Origin: Lachnospiraceae bacterium
Lineage (GTDB): Bacteria > Bacillota > Clostridia > Lachnospirales > Lachnospiraceae
Direction of reading: 5' to 3'
DNA length: 40,926 nt
Assembly: GCA_017617005.1 (NCBI GenBank)
Contig: JAFZWW010000056.1
Location: 1-40,926 of the forward strand
Below are positions 26,321-40,926 of this stretch, in pieces (the stretch's first letter is position 1; the number at the start of each line of letters is the position of its first letter). Under the pieces are notes generated by a model that saw only the letters and a list, made by a program, of their open reading frames with translations, did no database searches and was not told where the DNA came from. A program made the translations under genes and the position numbers.

Positions 26321-26356
26321 TTGCCGAAAAGCTTTCCTTGATATACAATGTATATC
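26321..26356 (+). promoter_or_regulatory. mazEF promoter with overlapping palindromic operator
   Basis: TTGCCG (26321-26326), a 17-base spacer and TACAAT (26344-26349) form the promoter. The palindrome GATATACA-A-TGTATATC (26340-26356, 8-1-8, perfect) covers the -10 box, so the MazE-MazF complex would block RNA polymerase, as in autoregulated type II modules. Confidence 0.75.
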
Positions 26357-26373
26357 ATAGAGGAGGAACCGTT

Positions 26374-26634
26374 ATGAATGTAACCGTTTCAAAATGGGGG
26401 AACAGCCTTGGAATAAGGGTTCCCGTGATGATTGCAGAATCTCTCGAGCTGCAGGCAGGGGATCAGATTGATTTCGAACTGAAGGACGGCGGGATGTTCC
26501 TGAAAAAGAAACAGAGCACAGCCGAAATGTTCGAGAAGTTCTACGGAAAGCCCCTTTCGCAGCTTACTCCCGAAGACCTCAGTCCCGCAGAAACCATCGA
26601 CTGGGGAGAAGATGTGGGAGGTGAGGTATTCTGA
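26374..26634 (+). CDS. mazE: MazE-like antitoxin (SpoVT-AbrB fold)
   Basis: An 86-residue AbrB-type DNA-binding antitoxin: the N-terminal swapped-hairpin core NVTVSKWGNSLGIRVPVMIAE binds DNA and the acidic C-terminal tail (PETIDWGEDVGGEVF type) covers the toxin. I start it at 26374, where AGAGGAGG lies 7 bases upstream. The upstream in-frame residues encode no family sequence. Its stop overlaps the toxin start (TGATG), so the antitoxin is made first and the toxin is coupled to it. Confidence 0.92.
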   Translation: MNVTVSKWGNSLGIRVPVMIAESLELQAGDQIDFELKDGGMFLKKKQSTAEMFEKFYGKPLSQLTPEDLSPAETIDWGEDVGGEVF

Positions 26635-26960
26635 TGTTCAAAAAAGGCGATATTGTAAAAGCTGACCTCAACCCCACAAAAGGCCATGAACAGGGCAATT
26701 ACAGGCCACTTCTCGTAATGAACTCCGTTCCCCTTCCCGGTGGAGTAAACATTGTACTTCCCATAACATCGAAACCTAAATCCTATCCCCTTGAGGTGGA
26801 ACTTGATGAAAGGACGGAAACAAAGGGCGTTGTACTGTGCTTTCAGATACGTACCGTGGACCTGAATGCAAGGGGTGCATCTCTCATAGAAAGGGCTCCC
26901 GATGACATTGTCGAGCTGTGCAATGATTATCTTCACAGACTTACCGATGATGTTGATTGA
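26634..26960 (+). CDS. mazF: MazF/PemK endoribonuclease toxin
   Basis: A 108-residue MazF-type toxin that cuts single-stranded mRNA at short sequence motifs. The N-terminal FKKGDIVKADLNPTKGHEQGNYRPLLVM matches the MazF/PemK fold, with the RP pair typical of the active site, and ITSKP...LEVEL follows. The length is normal and the frame is intact, so the toxin should be active. The cut sequence cannot be predicted by eye. Confidence 0.93.
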   Translation: MFKKGDIVKADLNPTKGHEQGNYRPLLVMNSVPLPGGVNIVLPITSKPKSYPLEVELDERTETKGVVLCFQIRTVDLNARGASLIERAPDDIVELCNDYLHRLTDDVD

Positions 26961-31442: not shown

Positions 31443-31463
31443 ATATGAAAGAGGGTGAAATCA

Positions 31464-32063
31464 TTGGATTATATATATGACGATTTAAAACTGCTGATAG
31501 AAGGTAATGGGGGCATTATATCATCCGGAGAGCTCCTTAAAGCCGGTGTAAATAGGGTGCAGCTATATGATCTGCTTGCAAATGGGATTCTGTCAAAGGA
31601 ATCTCATGGTAATTATGTGCTTTCAGGTGACGAGCCTGATGAGTATATGGTCATTCAAAAACGGTCAGATAAATTGATCTATTCTCACGGAACAGCTTTG
31701 TTTTTGTTGGGGATGTCAGACCGTGTTCCCCATATACTCGATATTACAGTTCCTCAGGGGGACAATGTCTCACGAATTAAAAAGACTTATCAGAATACCA
31801 GATTTCATTATTGCAAAAGGGAGTTATGGGATTTGGGAATTATGAAAATTAATACTCCGATGGGGTATTCCGTTCGCGCATATGACCCTGAACGTTGTAT
31901 CTGTGACATGATCCGAGATATGGATAATGTCGATAAGCAGGTATATATTCAGGCTTTGCAGGAATACTTCGGAGGCAAGTGTAATCCTCGAAAGATCATT
32001 AAATACGCCAAAGAGTTTAATATTGAGTCCAAAGTAAGAAATTATATGGAAGTGCTTCAATGA
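31464..32063 (+). CDS. abiEi: AbiEi-like antitoxin/repressor
   Basis: A 199-residue AbiEi homologue: an N-terminal winged-helix domain (about 1-75, with GGIISSGELLKAGVNRVQLYDLL and ESHGNYVL) that binds DNA, and a C-terminal AbiEi_C domain (about 76-199) that blocks the toxin. In type IV toxin-antitoxin systems the antitoxin opposes toxin activity. I start it at the TTG at 31464, with AGAGGGTGA a few bases before; the GTG at 31455 has no site. The inverted repeat in the promoter fits its role as autorepressor. It overlaps the toxin by 4 bases (ATGA). Confidence 0.85.
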   Translation: MDYIYDDLKLLIEGNGGIISSGELLKAGVNRVQLYDLLANGILSKESHGNYVLSGDEPDEYMVIQKRSDKLIYSHGTALFLLGMSDRVPHILDITVPQGDNVSRIKKTYQNTRFHYCKRELWDLGIMKINTPMGYSVRAYDPERCICDMIRDMDNVDKQVYIQALQEYFGGKCNPRKIIKYAKEFNIESKVRNYMEVLQ

Positions 32064-32902
32064 AAGACAGGACACCGGAACAATTAAAGGGCCAGATCAG
32101 AGCTTTTGCATCAAAAAGAAATCTTCAGCCGCAAGAGGTCCTTCAGATGTTTATGTTCGAGCGTGTTCTTGATAGATTGGCAAGATCAAAATATGCCAAG
32201 AATTTCATTCTGAAAGGTGGACTGCTCATATCTTCCATGTTCGGCATCGAAGAACGTACAACTTTGGATATGGATACCACCGTAACCGGAATCAATCTTG
32301 AAGAGGGAGAGATAAAAAGGATAATAAATGAAATCCTGGCTATAGATATAGGGGATGGAATTCGCTTTGAATTTTCAAGGATTGAGCCGATAAGAGATTC
32401 TGATGAGTACAATGATTACCGGGTCTATTTCATAGCACATTATGGAAAGATTGCTAATGAAATGAAAATGGATATCACAACAGGTGACATAATTACTCCA
32501 AGTGCGATCGATTATAAGTATAGAACGATTTTAGACGGAGACGAGATACACGTTAAGGCATACAATAAAGAGACCATCATTGCAGAAAAGTATGAGACGA
32601 TCATAAGAAGAAATATAGGATCGACAAGGGCACGAGATTTTTACGATCTACACATGTTTTATAACCTGTATATGAATGAGATTGACATTGACACGCTTAG
32701 GTCGGCCGTTGAAAAGACGTCTCGGAAGCGTGGATCAGAGAATGAACTGGCTGATTGGGATGAAATATGTGAGGATATGAAACAGGATGCCGAATTGATA
32801 AAATTATGGGATAATTACATAAGCAATAATCCGTACTCTCAAGGAGTGACATTTGAGGATGTTATGAAAGCAGTAGAGGAAGTCGGAAAACGATTGAAAT
32901 AA
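32060..32902 (+). CDS. abiEii: AbiEii nucleotidyltransferase toxin
   Basis: A 280-residue AbiEii/AbiGii/MenT-type nucleotidyltransferase toxin. Motif I is Lys52-Gly-Gly54 (LKGGLL) and motif II is RTTLDMD (residues 66-72, catalytic Asp70 and Asp72); a further lysine motif lies in IIAEKYETIIRR. Members of this family block translation by adding nucleotides to tRNA 3' ends, and some give abortive phage defence. All key residues are kept, so it should be active. It is translated with its antitoxin through the ATGA overlap. The A/T-rich sequence suggests horizontal transfer. Confidence 0.9.
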   Translation: MKDRTPEQLKGQIRAFASKRNLQPQEVLQMFMFERVLDRLARSKYAKNFILKGGLLISSMFGIEERTTLDMDTTVTGINLEEGEIKRIINEILAIDIGDGIRFEFSRIEPIRDSDEYNDYRVYFIAHYGKIANEMKMDITTGDIITPSAIDYKYRTILDGDEIHVKAYNKETIIAEKYETIIRRNIGSTRARDFYDLHMFYNLYMNEIDIDTLRSAVEKTSRKRGSENELADWDEICEDMKQDAELIKLWDNYISNNPYSQGVTFEDVMKAVEEVGKRLK

Positions 32903-33559: not shown

Positions 33560-34249
33560 ATGAACAATCCTGTTAAGACCTCTGAAACCAAATCAGAAAG
33601 CAATTCCCTGAAGATCTATCTCGAAGACGGTGAGATAAAGGTTCATGGGACTGTTAATCTTGGCTATATAGGCTTGTTTAAGGATTCACAGATCGAGATT
33701 GAAGATACCCTGGAAGATATCAGAGAGTGGGACATAGTAGAGGAGCATCTGGATCCGGATTGCTCTGATGATGAGCTTATTGATTTCCTGAATCATTACT
33801 TTAAGCGTTTTATTGAGAAAATAGAAAATAACCTTGATAACATCAATGGTACCTTTTTGCTCCAAGTCTTTACTGACATGGATAACTGTGAACTAAATTA
33901 CATGGTTATCGACGGATTGTTTGATGAACAAAAGCTCCTTTACGGCAATGAAGAGGATATAGCCGAAATATATAACCCTGTAAGACAGGGATTAAACAGT
34001 CTTTCGCCGTATCTCGAGACTCCCAATGACGGCACAATTCCCAAGGGGCATATTGAAAGTGTCCTCAGATCTTTTTATCCCACCTTTGATTTTGACTTTT
34101 TTTTAGATAATATTGAGCCCGAATATATCGAATTAGGCGACGGGGAGATAGCTTTCCAGTGTTCAGATAACTTCGATTGTGCGATTCTTTGCGGCGCATA
34201 CGCAGTTTTGGACGAAGAACTGGCCTTTTCCGATTGGCACAACTTTTAA
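33560..34249 (+). CDS. Acidic protein of unknown function
   Basis: A 229-residue soluble protein, very acidic (for example DIVEEHLDPDCSDDELIDFL), with many aromatic residues in the C-terminal half (RSFYPTFDFDFFLDNIEPEYIELG). It lacks a signal or membrane segment and I recognise no domain. It starts 19 bases after the acylphosphatase, and the next promoter lies at its 3' end, so it may or may not belong with the ExbB-like block. It could be an adaptor of that block; that is inference. Confidence 0.6.
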   Translation: MNNPVKTSETKSESNSLKIYLEDGEIKVHGTVNLGYIGLFKDSQIEIEDTLEDIREWDIVEEHLDPDCSDDELIDFLNHYFKRFIEKIENNLDNINGTFLLQVFTDMDNCELNYMVIDGLFDEQKLLYGNEEDIAEIYNPVRQGLNSLSPYLETPNDGTIPKGHIESVLRSFYPTFDFDFFLDNIEPEYIELGDGEIAFQCSDNFDCAILCGAYAVLDEELAFSDWHNF

Positions 34250-34275
34250 CAGAATGCCGCCAAAAATGGTATAAT
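34246..34275 (+). promoter_or_regulatory. Strong promoter of the ExbB-like operon
   Basis: TTAACA (34246-34251), an 18-base spacer and TATAAT (34270-34275), with an extended TGG just before the -10 box. It starts a transcript about 45 bases ahead of the channel gene. Confidence 0.75.
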
Positions 34276-34324
34276 AGAATCTGAATCAGCTCCATAGTCT
34301 GCTCAAAACGGAAAGGGCGATAAT

Positions 34325-34954
34325 ATGAAAGGTCTGAGTTCACTTTTCTATAACTACGATATCCATATAATCGTATTTTGCGCGGTTATAAATGCGATTA
34401 TATTTGCTCTCACAATTCTTCAGATAAGGTCTGTCCGGAAGACTCTCCATCCCCAATCCAGCGTCAGATTCAGAACCAAGGTCAACTCACAGATAACCGG
34501 TGAAGAGGCCCAGAAAATCTCTACACAGAAGAGCATTCTGCTGTTCTTATATTCTTCGTATGCTAACATCACAGCGATCTTTCCTTTGCTCGGAATATTG
34601 GGTACCGTTGCCGCTTTGATCAAGTTATCACCCAATGGCAGCGACGACATGATGCAAAACCTGATGGTGGCACTTGAGACCACCCTTTTGGGTGCGTTTT
34701 TCGCTGTTCTGTTTAAGTTCTTTGATTCGGTTCTTTCCGGGCCTATCGAGGAGATCTGTGACGACGTTGATTTCGTGATCCGAAATTATGATGAGACTAT
34801 AGAAGAAGCGAAGAAGCCCGCAGAGGAATCAAAGCAACCTGCCGTTGACGAGCAGAAGCCAGTCGAGGAAGCAAAGACCCCTATCGTAATAGATAACCCC
34901 ACCGAGGTCACAAATACCCCCTCCGAGGAAAAAGAATGCGAGGAAGACGCCTGA
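34325..34954 (+). CDS. MotA/TolQ/ExbB-type proton channel protein
   Basis: A 209-residue membrane protein with three hydrophobic segments: about 13-35, 76-98 (ITAIFPLLGILGTVAALIKL) and 110-137. The third reads LETTLLGAFFAVLFKFFDSVL, which matches the family's LxxTxxGxxxA pattern with the ion-path threonines. The tail (about 155-209) is a charged Pro/Glu/Lys stretch in the cytoplasm (KKPAEESKQPAVDEQKPVEE). Such subunits form a ring around an ExbD/MotB-type partner and use the ion gradient to drive motion. The partner gene overlaps the end by 19 bases. I do not see a TonB or flagellar gene in the window. Confidence 0.8.
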   Translation: MKGLSSLFYNYDIHIIVFCAVINAIIFALTILQIRSVRKTLHPQSSVRFRTKVNSQITGEEAQKISTQKSILLFLYSSYANITAIFPLLGILGTVAALIKLSPNGSDDMMQNLMVALETTLLGAFFAVLFKFFDSVLSGPIEEICDDVDFVIRNYDETIEEAKKPAEESKQPAVDEQKPVEEAKTPIVIDNPTEVTNTPSEEKECEEDA

Positions 34955-35517
34955 GGAATATCGTAATTGAATTAACGTCCCTGCTCGATGTGGTCATGAT
35001 CCTTATTTTTGCGGTCATGATCAATTATTCCAATGTCGCTGCGGAGAATCAGGAAAAGTACGAACAGGCACATGAGCAGCTGGACCAGGCCAGAGCTGAA
35101 CTCGCAGAAGGGCGGACAGAAGACCTGTTAAAAGAGCTCGCGGCTGCCGAAGGAAGAGCCGAGGCTTATGAGTATCTGGACAATCTCGTTGTCATCATCA
35201 ATGTCAGCCTGGTCAACAAGGGAGACAACAAATACAGGGTTCTGTCGTACGGTATCGGCTCCGAGAGAGGCTACAGTTCAAGATGGATCTCAAGGAATGA
35301 TGAGACCGAATTCAACAAGGAATTGATCCGGCTGAAGGATTATCTGTACGGAAATATCACAGATGCTGAGGATGATGCGATCATTTATATCGTGTTTACT
35401 TATGATTCCCAGACCATTAACGGAGACGATTGCGATCTTCTGAATCAGATATTAAAAGAAAAAACCGAGCTGGGCGACAACATATTCTTCTGTGAAAACG
35501 ATACGAGGGAGGGCTGA
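34936..35517 (+). CDS. ExbD-like partner with transmembrane Asp and coiled coil
   Basis: A 193-residue protein. The N-terminus MRGRRLRNIVIELTSLLDVVM is the pattern of ExbD/TolR/MotB helices, with the ion-binding Asp18 in the membrane segment (about 9-30). A coiled coil follows (about 36-72, ENQEKYEQAHEQLDQARAEL), then an extracellular domain of about 120 residues (73-193) that I do not recognise and that lacks the OmpA peptidoglycan-binding motif of MotB and ZorB. It starts inside the channel gene, so the two are translated together. The context strongly supports an ExbB-ExbD-like pair. Confidence 0.75.
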   Translation: MRGRRLRNIVIELTSLLDVVMILIFAVMINYSNVAAENQEKYEQAHEQLDQARAELAEGRTEDLLKELAAAEGRAEAYEYLDNLVVIINVSLVNKGDNKYRVLSYGIGSERGYSSRWISRNDETEFNKELIRLKDYLYGNITDAEDDAIIYIVFTYDSQTINGDDCDLLNQILKEKTELGDNIFFCENDTREG

Positions 35518-35519
35518 CC

Positions 35520-35921
35520 GTGAAAAAGTTTTTGGGATTTCTTGCGACAATTATTATTTTAGCCATAATCATTCTGGCAATCTTATTCTTTAAAGGAGGA
35601 CTCGGATTCGGCAACGGACTTGGCTTCGGCTCCGGAACCGGCGAATCCGAATCGGTTGTCAGCCAGATCGTTGACAGCAAAACCACCGAGACCGACAGTA
35701 ATGTGATCGTCATCAAAGTCTACGAAGACAAGATCTACTACAACGGAGAACTTGTTTCCGATACGGAAGAATTAAAGAAGCTGATCTCGGACGATGCCGC
35801 AAAGGGGGCATCCTTTACCTTTGAGCAGGAATATGGCATCAAAGCTACTTTGGATGAAGTAAAAGCCCTTTTAACAGAACTCGAAAAGTCCATAGATGTA
35901 CAAATAAAAGGCCTTAACTAA
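35520..35921 (+). CDS. Second ExbD-like membrane protein
   Basis: A 133-residue protein with a GTG start and a strong GAGGG ribosome site 6 bases upstream. An N-terminal helix (about 4-24) is followed by a Gly-rich linker (GGLGFGNGLGFGSGTG) and a folded domain (about 58-133) whose pattern VIVIKVYEDKIYYNGELV...ELKKLI...ATLDEVKALLTELEK resembles the periplasmic ExbD domain. The membrane helix has no Asp, so it cannot by itself form an ion path and may act as a coupling or regulatory subunit. It starts 2 bases after the ExbD-like gene. Confidence 0.65.
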   Translation: MKKFLGFLATIIILAIIILAILFFKGGLGFGNGLGFGSGTGESESVVSQIVDSKTTETDSNVIVIKVYEDKIYYNGELVSDTEELKKLISDDAAKGASFTFEQEYGIKATLDEVKALLTELEKSIDVQIKGLN

Positions 35922-35972
35922 AAGCCAACGGCTACATTCTGATACTCGTAAAAGAATACCTTGAGAAATACT

Positions 35973-36224
35973 ATGGACGAAATGAGGCTTGATATCTCCG
36001 GCGTTGTGGAGATGGACGGAAAGAAAATAGCCCGCATCTGTTTTACCAGGGGCAAGGATATTGCGGAAGGCTACATCCCCGACTGCGTTCTGACACGAGT
36101 TGAGGGCTTTACCGAAGAGGAAGCGTCCCAACTCGTCGACTACCTGCGGGCGAATCTTACGGACCTTAAGAAAAGAGCTGCAGCGATCAATCCGCTGAAT
36201 GCATTTATGGGTAAGAAAAACTAG
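35973..36224 (+). CDS. Small protein of unknown function in the ExbBD-like block
   Basis: An 83-residue protein beginning MDEMRLDISGVVEMDGKKIARICFTRG; the ATG at 35973 is preferred over the TTG at 35961. It has a likely small beta-alpha fold and a basic C-terminus, no signal or membrane helix. It lies between the second ExbD-like gene and the FecR gene, so it may be a cytoplasmic regulator of the block. The ribosome site is weak. The family is not recognised. Confidence 0.55.
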   Translation: MDEMRLDISGVVEMDGKKIARICFTRGKDIAEGYIPDCVLTRVEGFTEEEASQLVDYLRANLTDLKKRAAAINPLNAFMGKKN

Positions 36225-36246
36225 GATTCCTGTGAGAGGAGAATCT

Positions 36247-37734
36247 ATGAAATTTTTCAAGAAAATACATCTCCCGGATAATGCCGTGCCGTTTGTCATC
36301 GCACTTGTTGCGGTGGTCATCGTAGGCATAATAGCCGCATTCATTTACAAAAAAAGAGACATAGTCGAGGCACAGCGTACGGCCAAGATCATTGAGATTA
36401 ACGGCCCCTGCTCCATCATGCGAGAGGGAGCAACAATAAATGCCGTGGCCGATATGCCTCTGTATTCGGGTGATACATTCTATTCGGGAATCGATGCCTC
36501 CGCACGAATCATGATCGATGACGACAAATTCCTCTATCTTGATTCCACAACCAGGATCAATTTCACAGCTTCCGGAACACCCGAGGAGACTCATACTTTG
36601 ATCTTTGTCGAGTCCGGTTCAATGCTCACCGAGGTAAAAGAAAAACTTGCCGACGGTGAATCTTTTGATATCGTCACGCCCAATACCTTTATGGAAATAC
36701 ACGGAACCGATGTTCTTACCGTTGTTGCAGCTGATGAAAAAGGCAATATCGATACCACGTCCGCAGTGCTTCAGGGAAATGTTTCATTAACAACCGTTTT
36801 AAATCTTAACGGAAAGATCGTGTCTGTAAAGGATGCTTTGTCTTCGGGAGGATCGAGGAGAGTAACGACTAATGAGCAAAACCTTGTCGGTAACAACAAT
36901 ATGAAGAGTATTGCATGGACCGGACAGGACGTTAACGGAGAAACTCCTGCTTCTGTTACAAGTAATGAAGCCGGATTAGTTTATGGGGATGCTGTTTACA
37001 GCGAAGCTTTTCTTGATAATGTTATAGAGGTTCTTGAGAAGAGTGATCGTGAAGATATAGCTTCCGGAAGAGCCGCCGGCGAATCGAACGGCAATTCGAT
37101 AATTAATGCCAATGCACTCAGGAGAAAAGGTGAAAATAATTCCGTAGCCAATGCCGAAGCTCCTACAGGTTTATTGGCGGAAGGCGATGTATCAGTTGTA
37201 ACTCCGGATGAAGCGGCAGCTTTGGCAGAGGCAGAGGAAGCAGCGCGTATAGCTGCGCAGGAGGAAGCGGATCGTATAGCCGAAGAACGGGCCGCACAAC
37301 AAGCCGCAGACGAACAGCGCACCCAGGATATTTTGGCCATAGAGGCTGCCCAGGCGGAGGTAGCGGCATTAAATGAGGCTATTGCCGAAGCTCAGCGTTT
37401 AGCCGAAGAAGAAGCAGCCAGACAAGCGGCAGAGCAGGCTCAAAATAATCAGGGATCAGGAGGATCAACGCAGAATTCGTCTCCAACGCAGAATAATTCC
37501 GACGTTCATACTTCTGACGATCCCGGGCATAGTTCGGATACACCTAATGTACCGGAAACAGATGACCATGGCGGAACATTTACGGGATATTATACCACCG
37601 ACGGTATTCCGCTCTATATTAATTCTGATGAAATATACTATTACACGGACGGAGATGAGATATTCGAATACGATGGTGATCTCTTAGACGCTCCACCTTC
37701 CGACCCCTCATCCGATCCCCCTTCTGACCCTTAA
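36247..37734 (+). CDS. FecR-domain membrane protein
   Basis: A 495-residue protein with one transmembrane helix (about 13-34), an extracellular FecR domain (about 45-180, with AKIIEINGPCSIMREGA, MPLYSGDTFYSGIDASARIMIDD and FDIVTPNTFMEIHGT), then an Ala/Glu-rich helical stretch (about 315-400, such as AEEAARIAAQEEADRIAEERA) and a low-complexity Ser/Asp/Pro-rich end. In Gram-negative bacteria FecR domains relay outer-membrane signals to a sigma factor; here no sigma factor or receptor is adjacent. I start it at 36247, with AGGAGA upstream; the upstream ATG at 36199 overlaps the previous gene. Last gene of the ExbB/ExbD block. Confidence 0.75.
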   Translation: MKFFKKIHLPDNAVPFVIALVAVVIVGIIAAFIYKKRDIVEAQRTAKIIEINGPCSIMREGATINAVADMPLYSGDTFYSGIDASARIMIDDDKFLYLDSTTRINFTASGTPEETHTLIFVESGSMLTEVKEKLADGESFDIVTPNTFMEIHGTDVLTVVAADEKGNIDTTSAVLQGNVSLTTVLNLNGKIVSVKDALSSGGSRRVTTNEQNLVGNNNMKSIAWTGQDVNGETPASVTSNEAGLVYGDAVYSEAFLDNVIEVLEKSDREDIASGRAAGESNGNSIINANALRRKGENNSVANAEAPTGLLAEGDVSVVTPDEAAALAEAEEAARIAAQEEADRIAEERAAQQAADEQRTQDILAIEAAQAEVAALNEAIAEAQRLAEEEAARQAAEQAQNNQGSGGSTQNSSPTQNNSDVHTSDDPGHSSDTPNVPETDDHGGTFTGYYTTDGIPLYINSDEIYYYTDGDEIFEYDGDLLDAPPSDPSSDPPSDP

Positions 37735-38789: not shown

Positions 38790-39098
38790 ATGGATAAACA
38801 GAAAGTACAATATACAATTACAGAAATAGAATGCATGGTTCAGCCGATTCTTAAGAAATACTCTGCTGAACAGGCCATTTTATTCGGTTCATATGCAAGA
38901 AATGAAGCTACACCTGATTCGGATATAGATTTGATGGTTATTGGTGGAACTATGTTTGATCCTACAGATATTTTTTGTATAGCAGATGAATTGTACTCCG
39001 CTTCAGGGAAGAATGTAGATGTTTATGAAAAAAGAGAAATAGACGAACGGTCTGATTTTTTCAAGAACATTATGGCTGATGGGGTTGTGATCAAATGA
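38790..39098 (+). CDS. mntA: MntA-type nucleotidyltransferase antitoxin
   Basis: A 102-residue minimal nucleotidyltransferase with the full GSX10DXD motif (Gly33-Ser34, Asp45, Asp47 in GSYARNEATPDSDIDLMV). MntA antitoxins neutralise HepT by adding AMP groups to a tyrosine near its catalytic motif. It overlaps hepT by 4 bases (ATGA), and the pair has a promoter with inverted repeats and a strong terminator, so it forms a complete module. Confidence 0.92.
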   Translation: MDKQKVQYTITEIECMVQPILKKYSAEQAILFGSYARNEATPDSDIDLMVIGGTMFDPTDIFCIADELYSASGKNVDVYEKREIDERSDFFKNIMADGVVIK

Positions 39099-39439
39099 AG
39101 TATTCAGATGAACTGAGAATAGCTAAAATAGTTGAAACAACTGATAAACTTATCAAGTATATTTCTGACAGTTCTTTAACCAGGGATATGATTCTCAGCG
39201 ATGAAACCATCAGGTGGACTATAACCACACCTTTATATAATATAGGTGAACATGCGTATAATCTGTCTGATGAATTTAAGCAGAATAATCCTGAAATCCC
39301 TTGGACTAAGATATCCGGTCTTCGTCATCGCCTTGTTCATGACTATGAAAATACCAGCTGGAGTATTATATGTGATATCATCTTTGATGTTCTTCCCAAA
39401 TTTCAGGAGCAGTTGAAAAATCTTAAAAACGCGGATTAG
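39095..39439 (+). CDS. hepT: HepT-type HEPN toxin
   Basis: A 114-residue helical HEPN ribonuclease toxin. The catalytic motif RX4HXY is Arg77 and His82 with Tyr84 (RHRLVHDY). The Tyr is the usual target of MntA modification. The frame is intact. A/T-rich composition like AbiE and unlike the housekeeping genes supports acquisition. Confidence 0.92.
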   Translation: MKYSDELRIAKIVETTDKLIKYISDSSLTRDMILSDETIRWTITTPLYNIGEHAYNLSDEFKQNNPEIPWTKISGLRHRLVHDYENTSWSIICDIIFDVLPKFQEQLKNLKNAD

Positions 39440-40381: not shown

Positions 40382-40926
40382 ATGAGCAATAAAACAAAAA
40401 GATTCATACTCTGGAATTCATTCCTTTATCTCATAGCCCTGTGCCTTGCACTGAAGATTGTTGATGTATCCAACTATGGCCCGAATCACGCCTATGCACA
40501 GATCGGACTGTCGCGTATTAACATAGGCTTCAGAAAGCTCCTTCATTACAGCGATATAAATGTATATTCCAAGCCCTGGCTTACCGTAGCGGCAGTCATC
40601 AACATTATCTGCATACTGCTCTGTATCTTCTGGGTGATCATGTTCATCCGCGAGCTGGTAAAGTCCGGAAGATTTGACGGTGTTGGCACCGACAAGAACC
40701 TCTGGGCGACATTTTTCCTTTACGCAGCTGCAGGTCTATCCTGCCTCCTTCTCAAACTCTTCAAGATAAACTATGGCCCTGTCGCGGGACATTTGCGTAT
40801 TTCCGCATCATTCCCCTCAGTGCCTGTTCTCCTTTATATAGTCTCGATCGGAAGCACCCTGTTCCACGTATGGGATATCTTCGGTGAAAAGAAAAACTTA
40901 TCGAAAGCCTTAACGGTGATCGGATC
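40382..40926 (+). CDS. PAP2-like membrane protein, 3' end missing
   Basis: An open frame with 181 codons visible, cut off by the window end. Four or five hydrophobic segments are visible (about 9-26, 67-90, 105-120, 135-155). The spacing recalls the PAP2 phosphatase family, where a VNYRP-like motif precedes PSSH; here I read INYGPVAGH...ASFPSVPVLLY, so the catalytic PSxxH pattern is missing its His. It could be a degenerate or non-catalytic relative. The assignment is tentative. Confidence 0.5.
   Translation, partial: MSNKTKRFILWNSFLYLIALCLALKIVDVSNYGPNHAYAQIGLSRINIGFRKLLHYSDINVYSKPWLTVAAVINIICILLCIFWVIMFIRELVKSGRFDGVGTDKNLWATFFLYAAAGLSCLLLKLFKINYGPVAGHLRISASFPSVPVLLYIVSIGSTLFHVWDIFGEKKNLSKALTVIG

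Follow-up and report, generated by a model that had tools for sequence, protein, structure and literature searches.

The stretch of DNA considered here (the window) comprises the 40,926 nucleotides of contig JAFZWW010000056.1, which is contig 119 of a draft Lachnospiraceae genome (assembly GCA_017617005.1) of 2.44 Mb and 86.8% completeness. It carries three consecutive genes, ORF1, ORF2 and ORF3 (ORF, open reading frame), which lie head to tail in the same direction and encode relatives of the ion-driven motor proteins ExbB–ExbD and TolQ–TolR. ORF1 overlaps ORF2 by 19 nucleotides, and a gap of 2 nucleotides separates ORF2 from ORF3. The coordinates given for these genes in an earlier note on the same DNA are borne out (Table 1).

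Genes and proteins of the trio

ORF1 matches the MotA_ExbB family (PF01618) at 35.8 bits, above the curated cut-off of 22.9. In a profile comparison the ORF1 family matches ExbB/TolQ at 97.4%, the top-scoring structure for the same profile is a MotA, and at the level of sequence profiles ORF1 is a homologue of MotA, TolQ and ExbB. Four hydropathy windows, of which two overlap, are read as three membrane regions, in agreement with the three-helix protein described earlier; the first and second transmembrane regions (TM1 and TM2) are about 40 residues apart. Thr94 and Thr120 are kept in 40 of 40 ORF1 proteins. Both were equated with the threonines of TolQ/ExbB by motif and by invariant alignment columns, and presumably they play the same roles in the pore.

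ORF2 has one transmembrane helix, IELTSLLDVVMILIF, which is of the ExbD/TolR type and includes Asp18. This aspartate is conserved in 40 of 40 ORF2 proteins as part of a T(P/S)LLDV-type signature (a regular expression recovered 37 of the 40, the other three are visible in the sequence, and a second test gave 40/40). The helix matches the ExbD transmembrane helix at 97.6% by profile comparison, among PDB entries the ORF2 profile matches the TolR helix best (E 0.004), and by these profiles the two helices are homologous. The overlapping partner with a transmembrane aspartate, as the earlier note had it, is therefore present. A match to the ExbD profile, which had been proposed as a check, gave a divided result: the window's own ORF2 reaches 13.2 bits against PF02472, below the curated cut-off of 25.4, whereas the profile is matched at E ≤ 0.1 by 20 of the 28 family members, the window's copy among them, with 1.1e-7 as the best value in the family. 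The outer domain of ORF2 matches ExbD at 1.8% by profile. When its fold was compared, the periplasmic domain of ExbD took ranks 1 and 2 (aligned target residues 72/74 and 70/72, 2.3 Å), a ranking that does not exclude folds outside the comparison list, such as MotB and OmpA. The domain is probably ExbD-like in fold, which the comparison supports but does not prove. A profile scan found no OmpA-type domain match in ORF2. Homologues range from 164 to 488 residues in length; in the longest (locus L054:8047-9510, 488 residues), the coiled region is greatly lengthened.

The outer domain of ORF3, taken alone, matches ExbD/TolR at 75% with hhalign, whereas 40 shuffles of the domain reach at most 1.1%; full-length ORF3 reaches 88%, a value obtained without a shuffle control. 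At the level of profiles, this domain is homologous to ExbD. PF02472 is touched by 5 of 38 ORF3 family members at E ≤ 0.1, and the ORF3 profile gives chance-like hits against the PDB, with ExbD not among them. The most hydrophobic 19 residues are free of acidic residues in 52 of 57 ORF3 proteins; the other five carry one acidic residue near the C-terminal end of that segment. The second ExbD-like protein without a transmembrane aspartate had thus been recognized correctly.

Upstream of ORF1, the earlier note had placed a strong promoter. The sequence TTAACA-18-TATAAT with the TG of an extended −10 element is there, but the whole region contains 12 promoter-like sites against 12.7 in shuffled sequence, so the promoter is plausible and not proven.

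Table 1. Positions of the motor trio, its presumed ion-path codons and other features in the window
Feature	Position	Strand	Remarks
ORF1, compact MotA/TolQ/ExbB-type A subunit	34325..34954	+	209 residues; PF01618 match
Codon of Thr94, putative pore threonine	34604..34606	+	TM2 (..LGTV..); invariant 40/40
Codon of Thr120, putative pore threonine	34682..34684	+	TM3 (..ALETT..G..); invariant 40/40
ORF2, B subunit	34936..35517	+	N-terminal ExbD-type transmembrane helix, coiled spacer, probably ExbD-like outer domain (residues ~85-190)
Codon of Asp18, presumed ion-carrying transmembrane aspartate	34987..34989	+	40/40 ORF2 homologues
ORF3, second ExbD-like protein	35520..35921	+	One transmembrane helix without acidic residue, glycine-rich linker, ExbD-like outer domain
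Putative sigma-70 promoter TTAACA-18-TATAAT, extended −10 (TG)	34246..34275	+	11/12 consensus matches; overlaps end of upstream ORF
Small ORF	35961-36224		
Toxin-antitoxin pair MazEF	26338-26960		
Toxin-antitoxin pair AbiEi/AbiEii	31455-32902		AbiEi slightly below cut-off (24.8 vs 25)
Toxin-antitoxin pair, nucleotidyltransferase/HepT type	38790-39439		

Distribution, conservation and selection

The trio is conserved well beyond the strain in which it was first noted. A total of 46 loci were read, of which 42 remained after duplicates (L063, L086, L087 and L088) were dropped. ORF2 is present in 40 of these 42; L045 and L046, which have marginal ORF1 matches with stops and lack ORF2, were set aside. 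ORF1 and ORF3 accompany ORF2 in all 40, in the order 1-2-3 in 21 loci, with two copies of ORF3 in 17 and with ORF3 first in two. The profiles share sequences with the loci on which they were tested, so that matches of members arise by construction; the co-location of the three genes does not, and its recurrence in 40 loci is more than chance. The ratio of nonsynonymous to synonymous substitution rates (dN/dS) is 0.03-0.22 in the eight comparisons with a synonymous rate (dS) below 1. It is 0.03-0.26 across the 21 of 24 comparisons that gave a value (three gave none), although dS exceeds 1 in 13 of the 21 and the ratio is rough there (at most 0.26). Together, the conserved ion-path residues, the recurrence of the trio and the low dN/dS point to a real family and a functional unit under purifying selection, not a remnant.

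Within the family of the window, the distribution is patchy. A search with ORF1 only gave matches in 30 of 397 sampled genomes, and the ORF2 family profile, built from the finds of the ORF1 search, matches 31 of the 397, 29 of them at E below 1e-12; G129 and G390 (E 3e-4 and 3e-5) were left out of the 29 ORF2-positive species. Strong ORF1-family matches (E 1e-32 or better) occur in 11 of 31 genomes of the genus. At the class level, such a match was found in one of 341 sampled genomes besides the window's own, in a species of another family. A genome from outside the family but within the class (G868, locus L085) has a complete trio beside what looks by eye like an aldolase-like gene, and acquisition by horizontal transfer is possible. 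Most of the weak class-level ORF1 matches lie in open frames of about 260-300 residues, presumably those of flagellar MotA. Among 398 genomes sampled across the phylum, the ORF2 profile has a strong match in the window's own genome only, together with six weak ones (E 2.4e-6 to 6.8e-4); four of these (L069, L070, L072 and L073) were examined and are ordinary ExbB–ExbD pairs adjoining TonB-like genes. A tree of ORF1 and ORF2, with 40 loci and 339 columns, splits the 11 genus loci among four separate positions, and in the window and its nearest relatives the trio stands in differing surroundings. Both observations speak for spread of the trio by horizontal movement or for differential loss.

Neighbouring genes and optional companions

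The earlier note had joined the trio to the small ORF and to a FecR-domain gene as a conserved five-gene unit, a proposal that was rejected. In the genus-mate G116, orthologues of the FecR gene, the DUF4272 gene, the small ORF and the ORF at 40382 lie on contig 8 (76-88 kb), with about 8 kb between FecR and the rest, an arrangement that differs from that of the window. No motor gene occurs around them in the 39.6 kb read; the trio of G116 belongs to another lineage and lies about 60 kb from these orthologues. The small ORF of G116 is 93% identical and 72 kb from the motor of that genome. Matches to the small ORF occur in 19 of the 31 genus genomes, and in 11 of those 19 a strong motor match is lacking. 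The genes for FecR and DUF4272 and the small ORF are thus not core members of the motor.

The FecR protein of the window passes its cut-off (29.4 vs 24 bits). FecR matches occur in 27 of the 31 genus genomes, one to eight in each; these counts are lower bounds, since the search missed the window's own FecR, which passes the cut-off elsewhere. A FecR gene also lies upstream of the trio in L004 and L005, and a broken form in L006, where the gene (L006:7771-8453) consists of two short frames with the middle missing, which could be a fault of metagenome assembly. FecR and the trio may therefore be loosely associated within the genus. As a separate matter, the window's FecR has an Ala/Glu-rich stretch with weak hits to TolA (E 0.06), and a role as a TolA/TonB-like transducer was considered and set aside: the relatives in L004 and L005 have no such stretch (by eye) and the gene in L006 is broken.

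Companions of the trio were mapped in 39 loci, 35 of them non-redundant, and those that occur are optional and follow lineages. A secreted OB-fold-type (tRNA_anti-like) protein of 240-376 residues is encoded after the ORF3 genes in 13 of the 35 (for instance, L043:11652-12617). Its C-terminal part is conserved, PF12869 was matched in six of 12 scanned (E ≤ 0.01), and the protein may serve the motor as an outer partner in that lineage. An AIM24-type gene adjoins ORF1 in seven of the 35 loci (for instance, L043:8765-9568; confirmed with Pfam on one), in six of the seven on the same strand and 11-55 nucleotides upstream. In the genus-mates L091, L092 and L094, an EAL-type membrane protein (cyclic di-GMP, c-di-GMP; Pfam confirmed on one) is encoded 9-32 nucleotides upstream of ORF1, which suggests that a second messenger controls the motor in one lineage. 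An EAL-type gene also occurs downstream in L051 and several kilobases upstream in L089 and L090.

The remaining neighbours were scanned with PADLOC and Pfam: 141 proteins from 33 of the 39 mapped loci, with at most five per locus and three genes on either side. AIM24 and OB-fold proteins, proteins of fewer than 80 or more than 899 residues or containing X, and the loci L063, L086, L087, L088, L091 and L094 were left out. No defence or other family recurred among the 141, the commonest reaching 3/141 both in Pfam and in PADLOC (E ≤ 1e-8, with 124 families matching), as judged from the 25 most frequent families of each library. FecR was found at E ≤ 1e-6 only in L004 and L005, both of the window's genus, and the window's own copy fell slightly short. 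The suggested proximity to defence genes, and with it a role in defence, was not upheld, since neighbours vary between loci. Three toxin-antitoxin modules do lie in the window as reported, although they span 13 kb rather than 12.

A proposed wall- or surface-acting motor and its relation to known systems

In the 86.8%-complete genome, neither TonB_C (PF03544) nor the TonB-dependent receptor (PF00593) has a match, and no OmpA domain was found at the motor locus, which agrees with the earlier description. At the same completeness, the genome holds two strong MotA_ExbB matches besides ORF1, one of which (C81:490-843) adjoins the sole OmpA match (C81:1566-1868). With moderate confidence, the products of ORF1, ORF2 and ORF3 are considered to form a motor of the ExbB–ExbD/TolQ–TolR kind that is driven by a proton (or other ion) motive force and acts on the cell wall or surface. 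A mechanism like that of the relatives is the most economical. An ORF1 pentamer would enclose two transmembrane helices, at least one of them from ORF2, whose helix would place Asp18 opposite the ring of Thr94 and Thr120. Ion flow past the Asp18 site would move the axle, and the outer domains of ORF2 and ORF3 would pass this movement to peptidoglycan or a surface protein, targets suggested because no outer-membrane receptor system was detected. ORF3, lacking an ion-binding aspartate, may complete a mixed axle as its other half or be an anchored partner to the axle. We infer the ring, its stoichiometry, the rotation, the ion, the target and the physiological role by analogy with these relatives. 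More tentatively, and as a possibility that we would not call likely, the axle may be asymmetric and specific to this lineage: the Asp-bearing helix of ORF2 would pair with the Asp-less helix of ORF3, and a single site would drive the wheel, pulling on peptidoglycan or a surface protein without an outer membrane. If true, a natural axle with one charged partner would provide a clean test of two-site rotation models.

Lachnospiraceae are monoderm, that is, they have a single membrane, and a putative motor of the outer-membrane-reaching kind here sits in such a group. A 2022 review treats ExbBD motors as a gram-negative property and leaves the function of gram-positive orthologues to be tested (PMC9389320). 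Non-flagellar homologues of unknown function are mentioned in another paper (PMC12505986). No description of the ORF1-ORF2-ORF3 trio was found in the literature searched, which was available in part and whose coverage excludes subscription journals and preprints; within that scope, the machine is undescribed, as the earlier note had supposed. With a trio that recurs, is under selection and keeps every ion-path residue, the function of a gram-positive ExbBD system becomes directly testable.

Motor parts could also serve as a regulated ion channel or as a valve for pH or proton motive force, without mechanical output. Such a valve would fit ion-path residues that are invariant whereas the outer parts diverge, the lack of a conserved force-receiving partner and the c-di-GMP-linked EAL-type protein encoded immediately upstream of the trio in three genus-mates. 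It would not seem to need two outer domains, however, and the retention of two dedicated ExbD-like ones in 40 of 40 trio loci therefore counts against this reading, which we regard as doubtful. A motor for gliding or surface movement, on the pattern of AglRQS of Myxococcus, would have the identical subunit formula of a single A protein and two B-type proteins that differ from each other. This reading is very improbable: according to the 2022 review (PMC9389320), the aspartate is predicted in both AglQ and AglS, whereas here ORF2 alone has it. A 2025 study regards the Ton genes occasionally present in monoderms as probably non-functional (PMC12204202), and the trio might by the same token be a vestigial or non-functional Ton remnant. 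This is barely credible: dN/dS is 0.03-0.22 in the eight comparisons with dS below 1, Asp18 and both threonines are kept in 40 of 40 loci, and the ordinary ExbB–ExbD genes found beside TonB-like genes in the phylum match the trio family weakly.

In a Zorya-like anti-phage system, the motor would sense a phage-induced disturbance of the wall and trigger an effector. Several observations are consistent with this role. The distribution is patchy (11 of 31 genomes in the genus, 29 of 397 in the family), with four trio lineages inside one genus; the window holds three toxin-antitoxin modules; in L058 the immediate upstream neighbour is an FRG gene, and in L064 GmrSD is encoded three genes upstream; and ORF2 has a weak ZorB1 match (E 0.004). 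A PADLOC scan of eight proteins of the locus gave no hit below that E value, however; the immediate neighbours include no common effector gene, and no PADLOC family exceeds 3/141 neighbour proteins. No relatives were found in viral contigs (queried with the ORF2 alignment), plasmids (ORF2) or phages (ORF1), with one protein queried in each. Zorya I and II require both the long ZorA tail and the OmpA-type domain of ZorB (PMC11890865), whereas ORF1, at 209 residues, has no such tail and ORF2 has no OmpA-type match. A defence function of this type is thus unlikely.

Set beside the known systems, the proposed wall- or surface-acting motor shares with ZorA–ZorB an ion-motor core, although the trio has no long ZorA tail, no match to the OmpA-like ZorB domain and no hit to a Zorya effector (ZorC, ZorD or ZorE) at the locus. 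MotA–MotB stators belong to the same ion-motor superfamily, and the ORF1 profile scores best with a MotA structure; MotA has four membrane regions, whereas ORF1 is read as having three, and ORF2 has no OmpA domain match. AglR–AglQ–AglS of Myxococcus xanthus likewise pairs a single A subunit with two distinct B-type proteins, but both of these have a predicted aspartate and they work with a gliding machinery in a gram-negative host. Unlike the Ton and Tol–Pal systems, the trio occurs in a genome in which searches for TonB, for a TonB-dependent receptor and for a second OmpA protein found nothing. It differs from ExbB–ExbD and TolQ–TolR in its second ExbD-like protein without the aspartate, its short ORF1 loop and its single-membrane host, and shares with them the ORF1 profile (97.4%), the Asp-bearing transmembrane signature (97.6%) and the ExbD-like outer domain, present in ORF3 and probably in ORF2.

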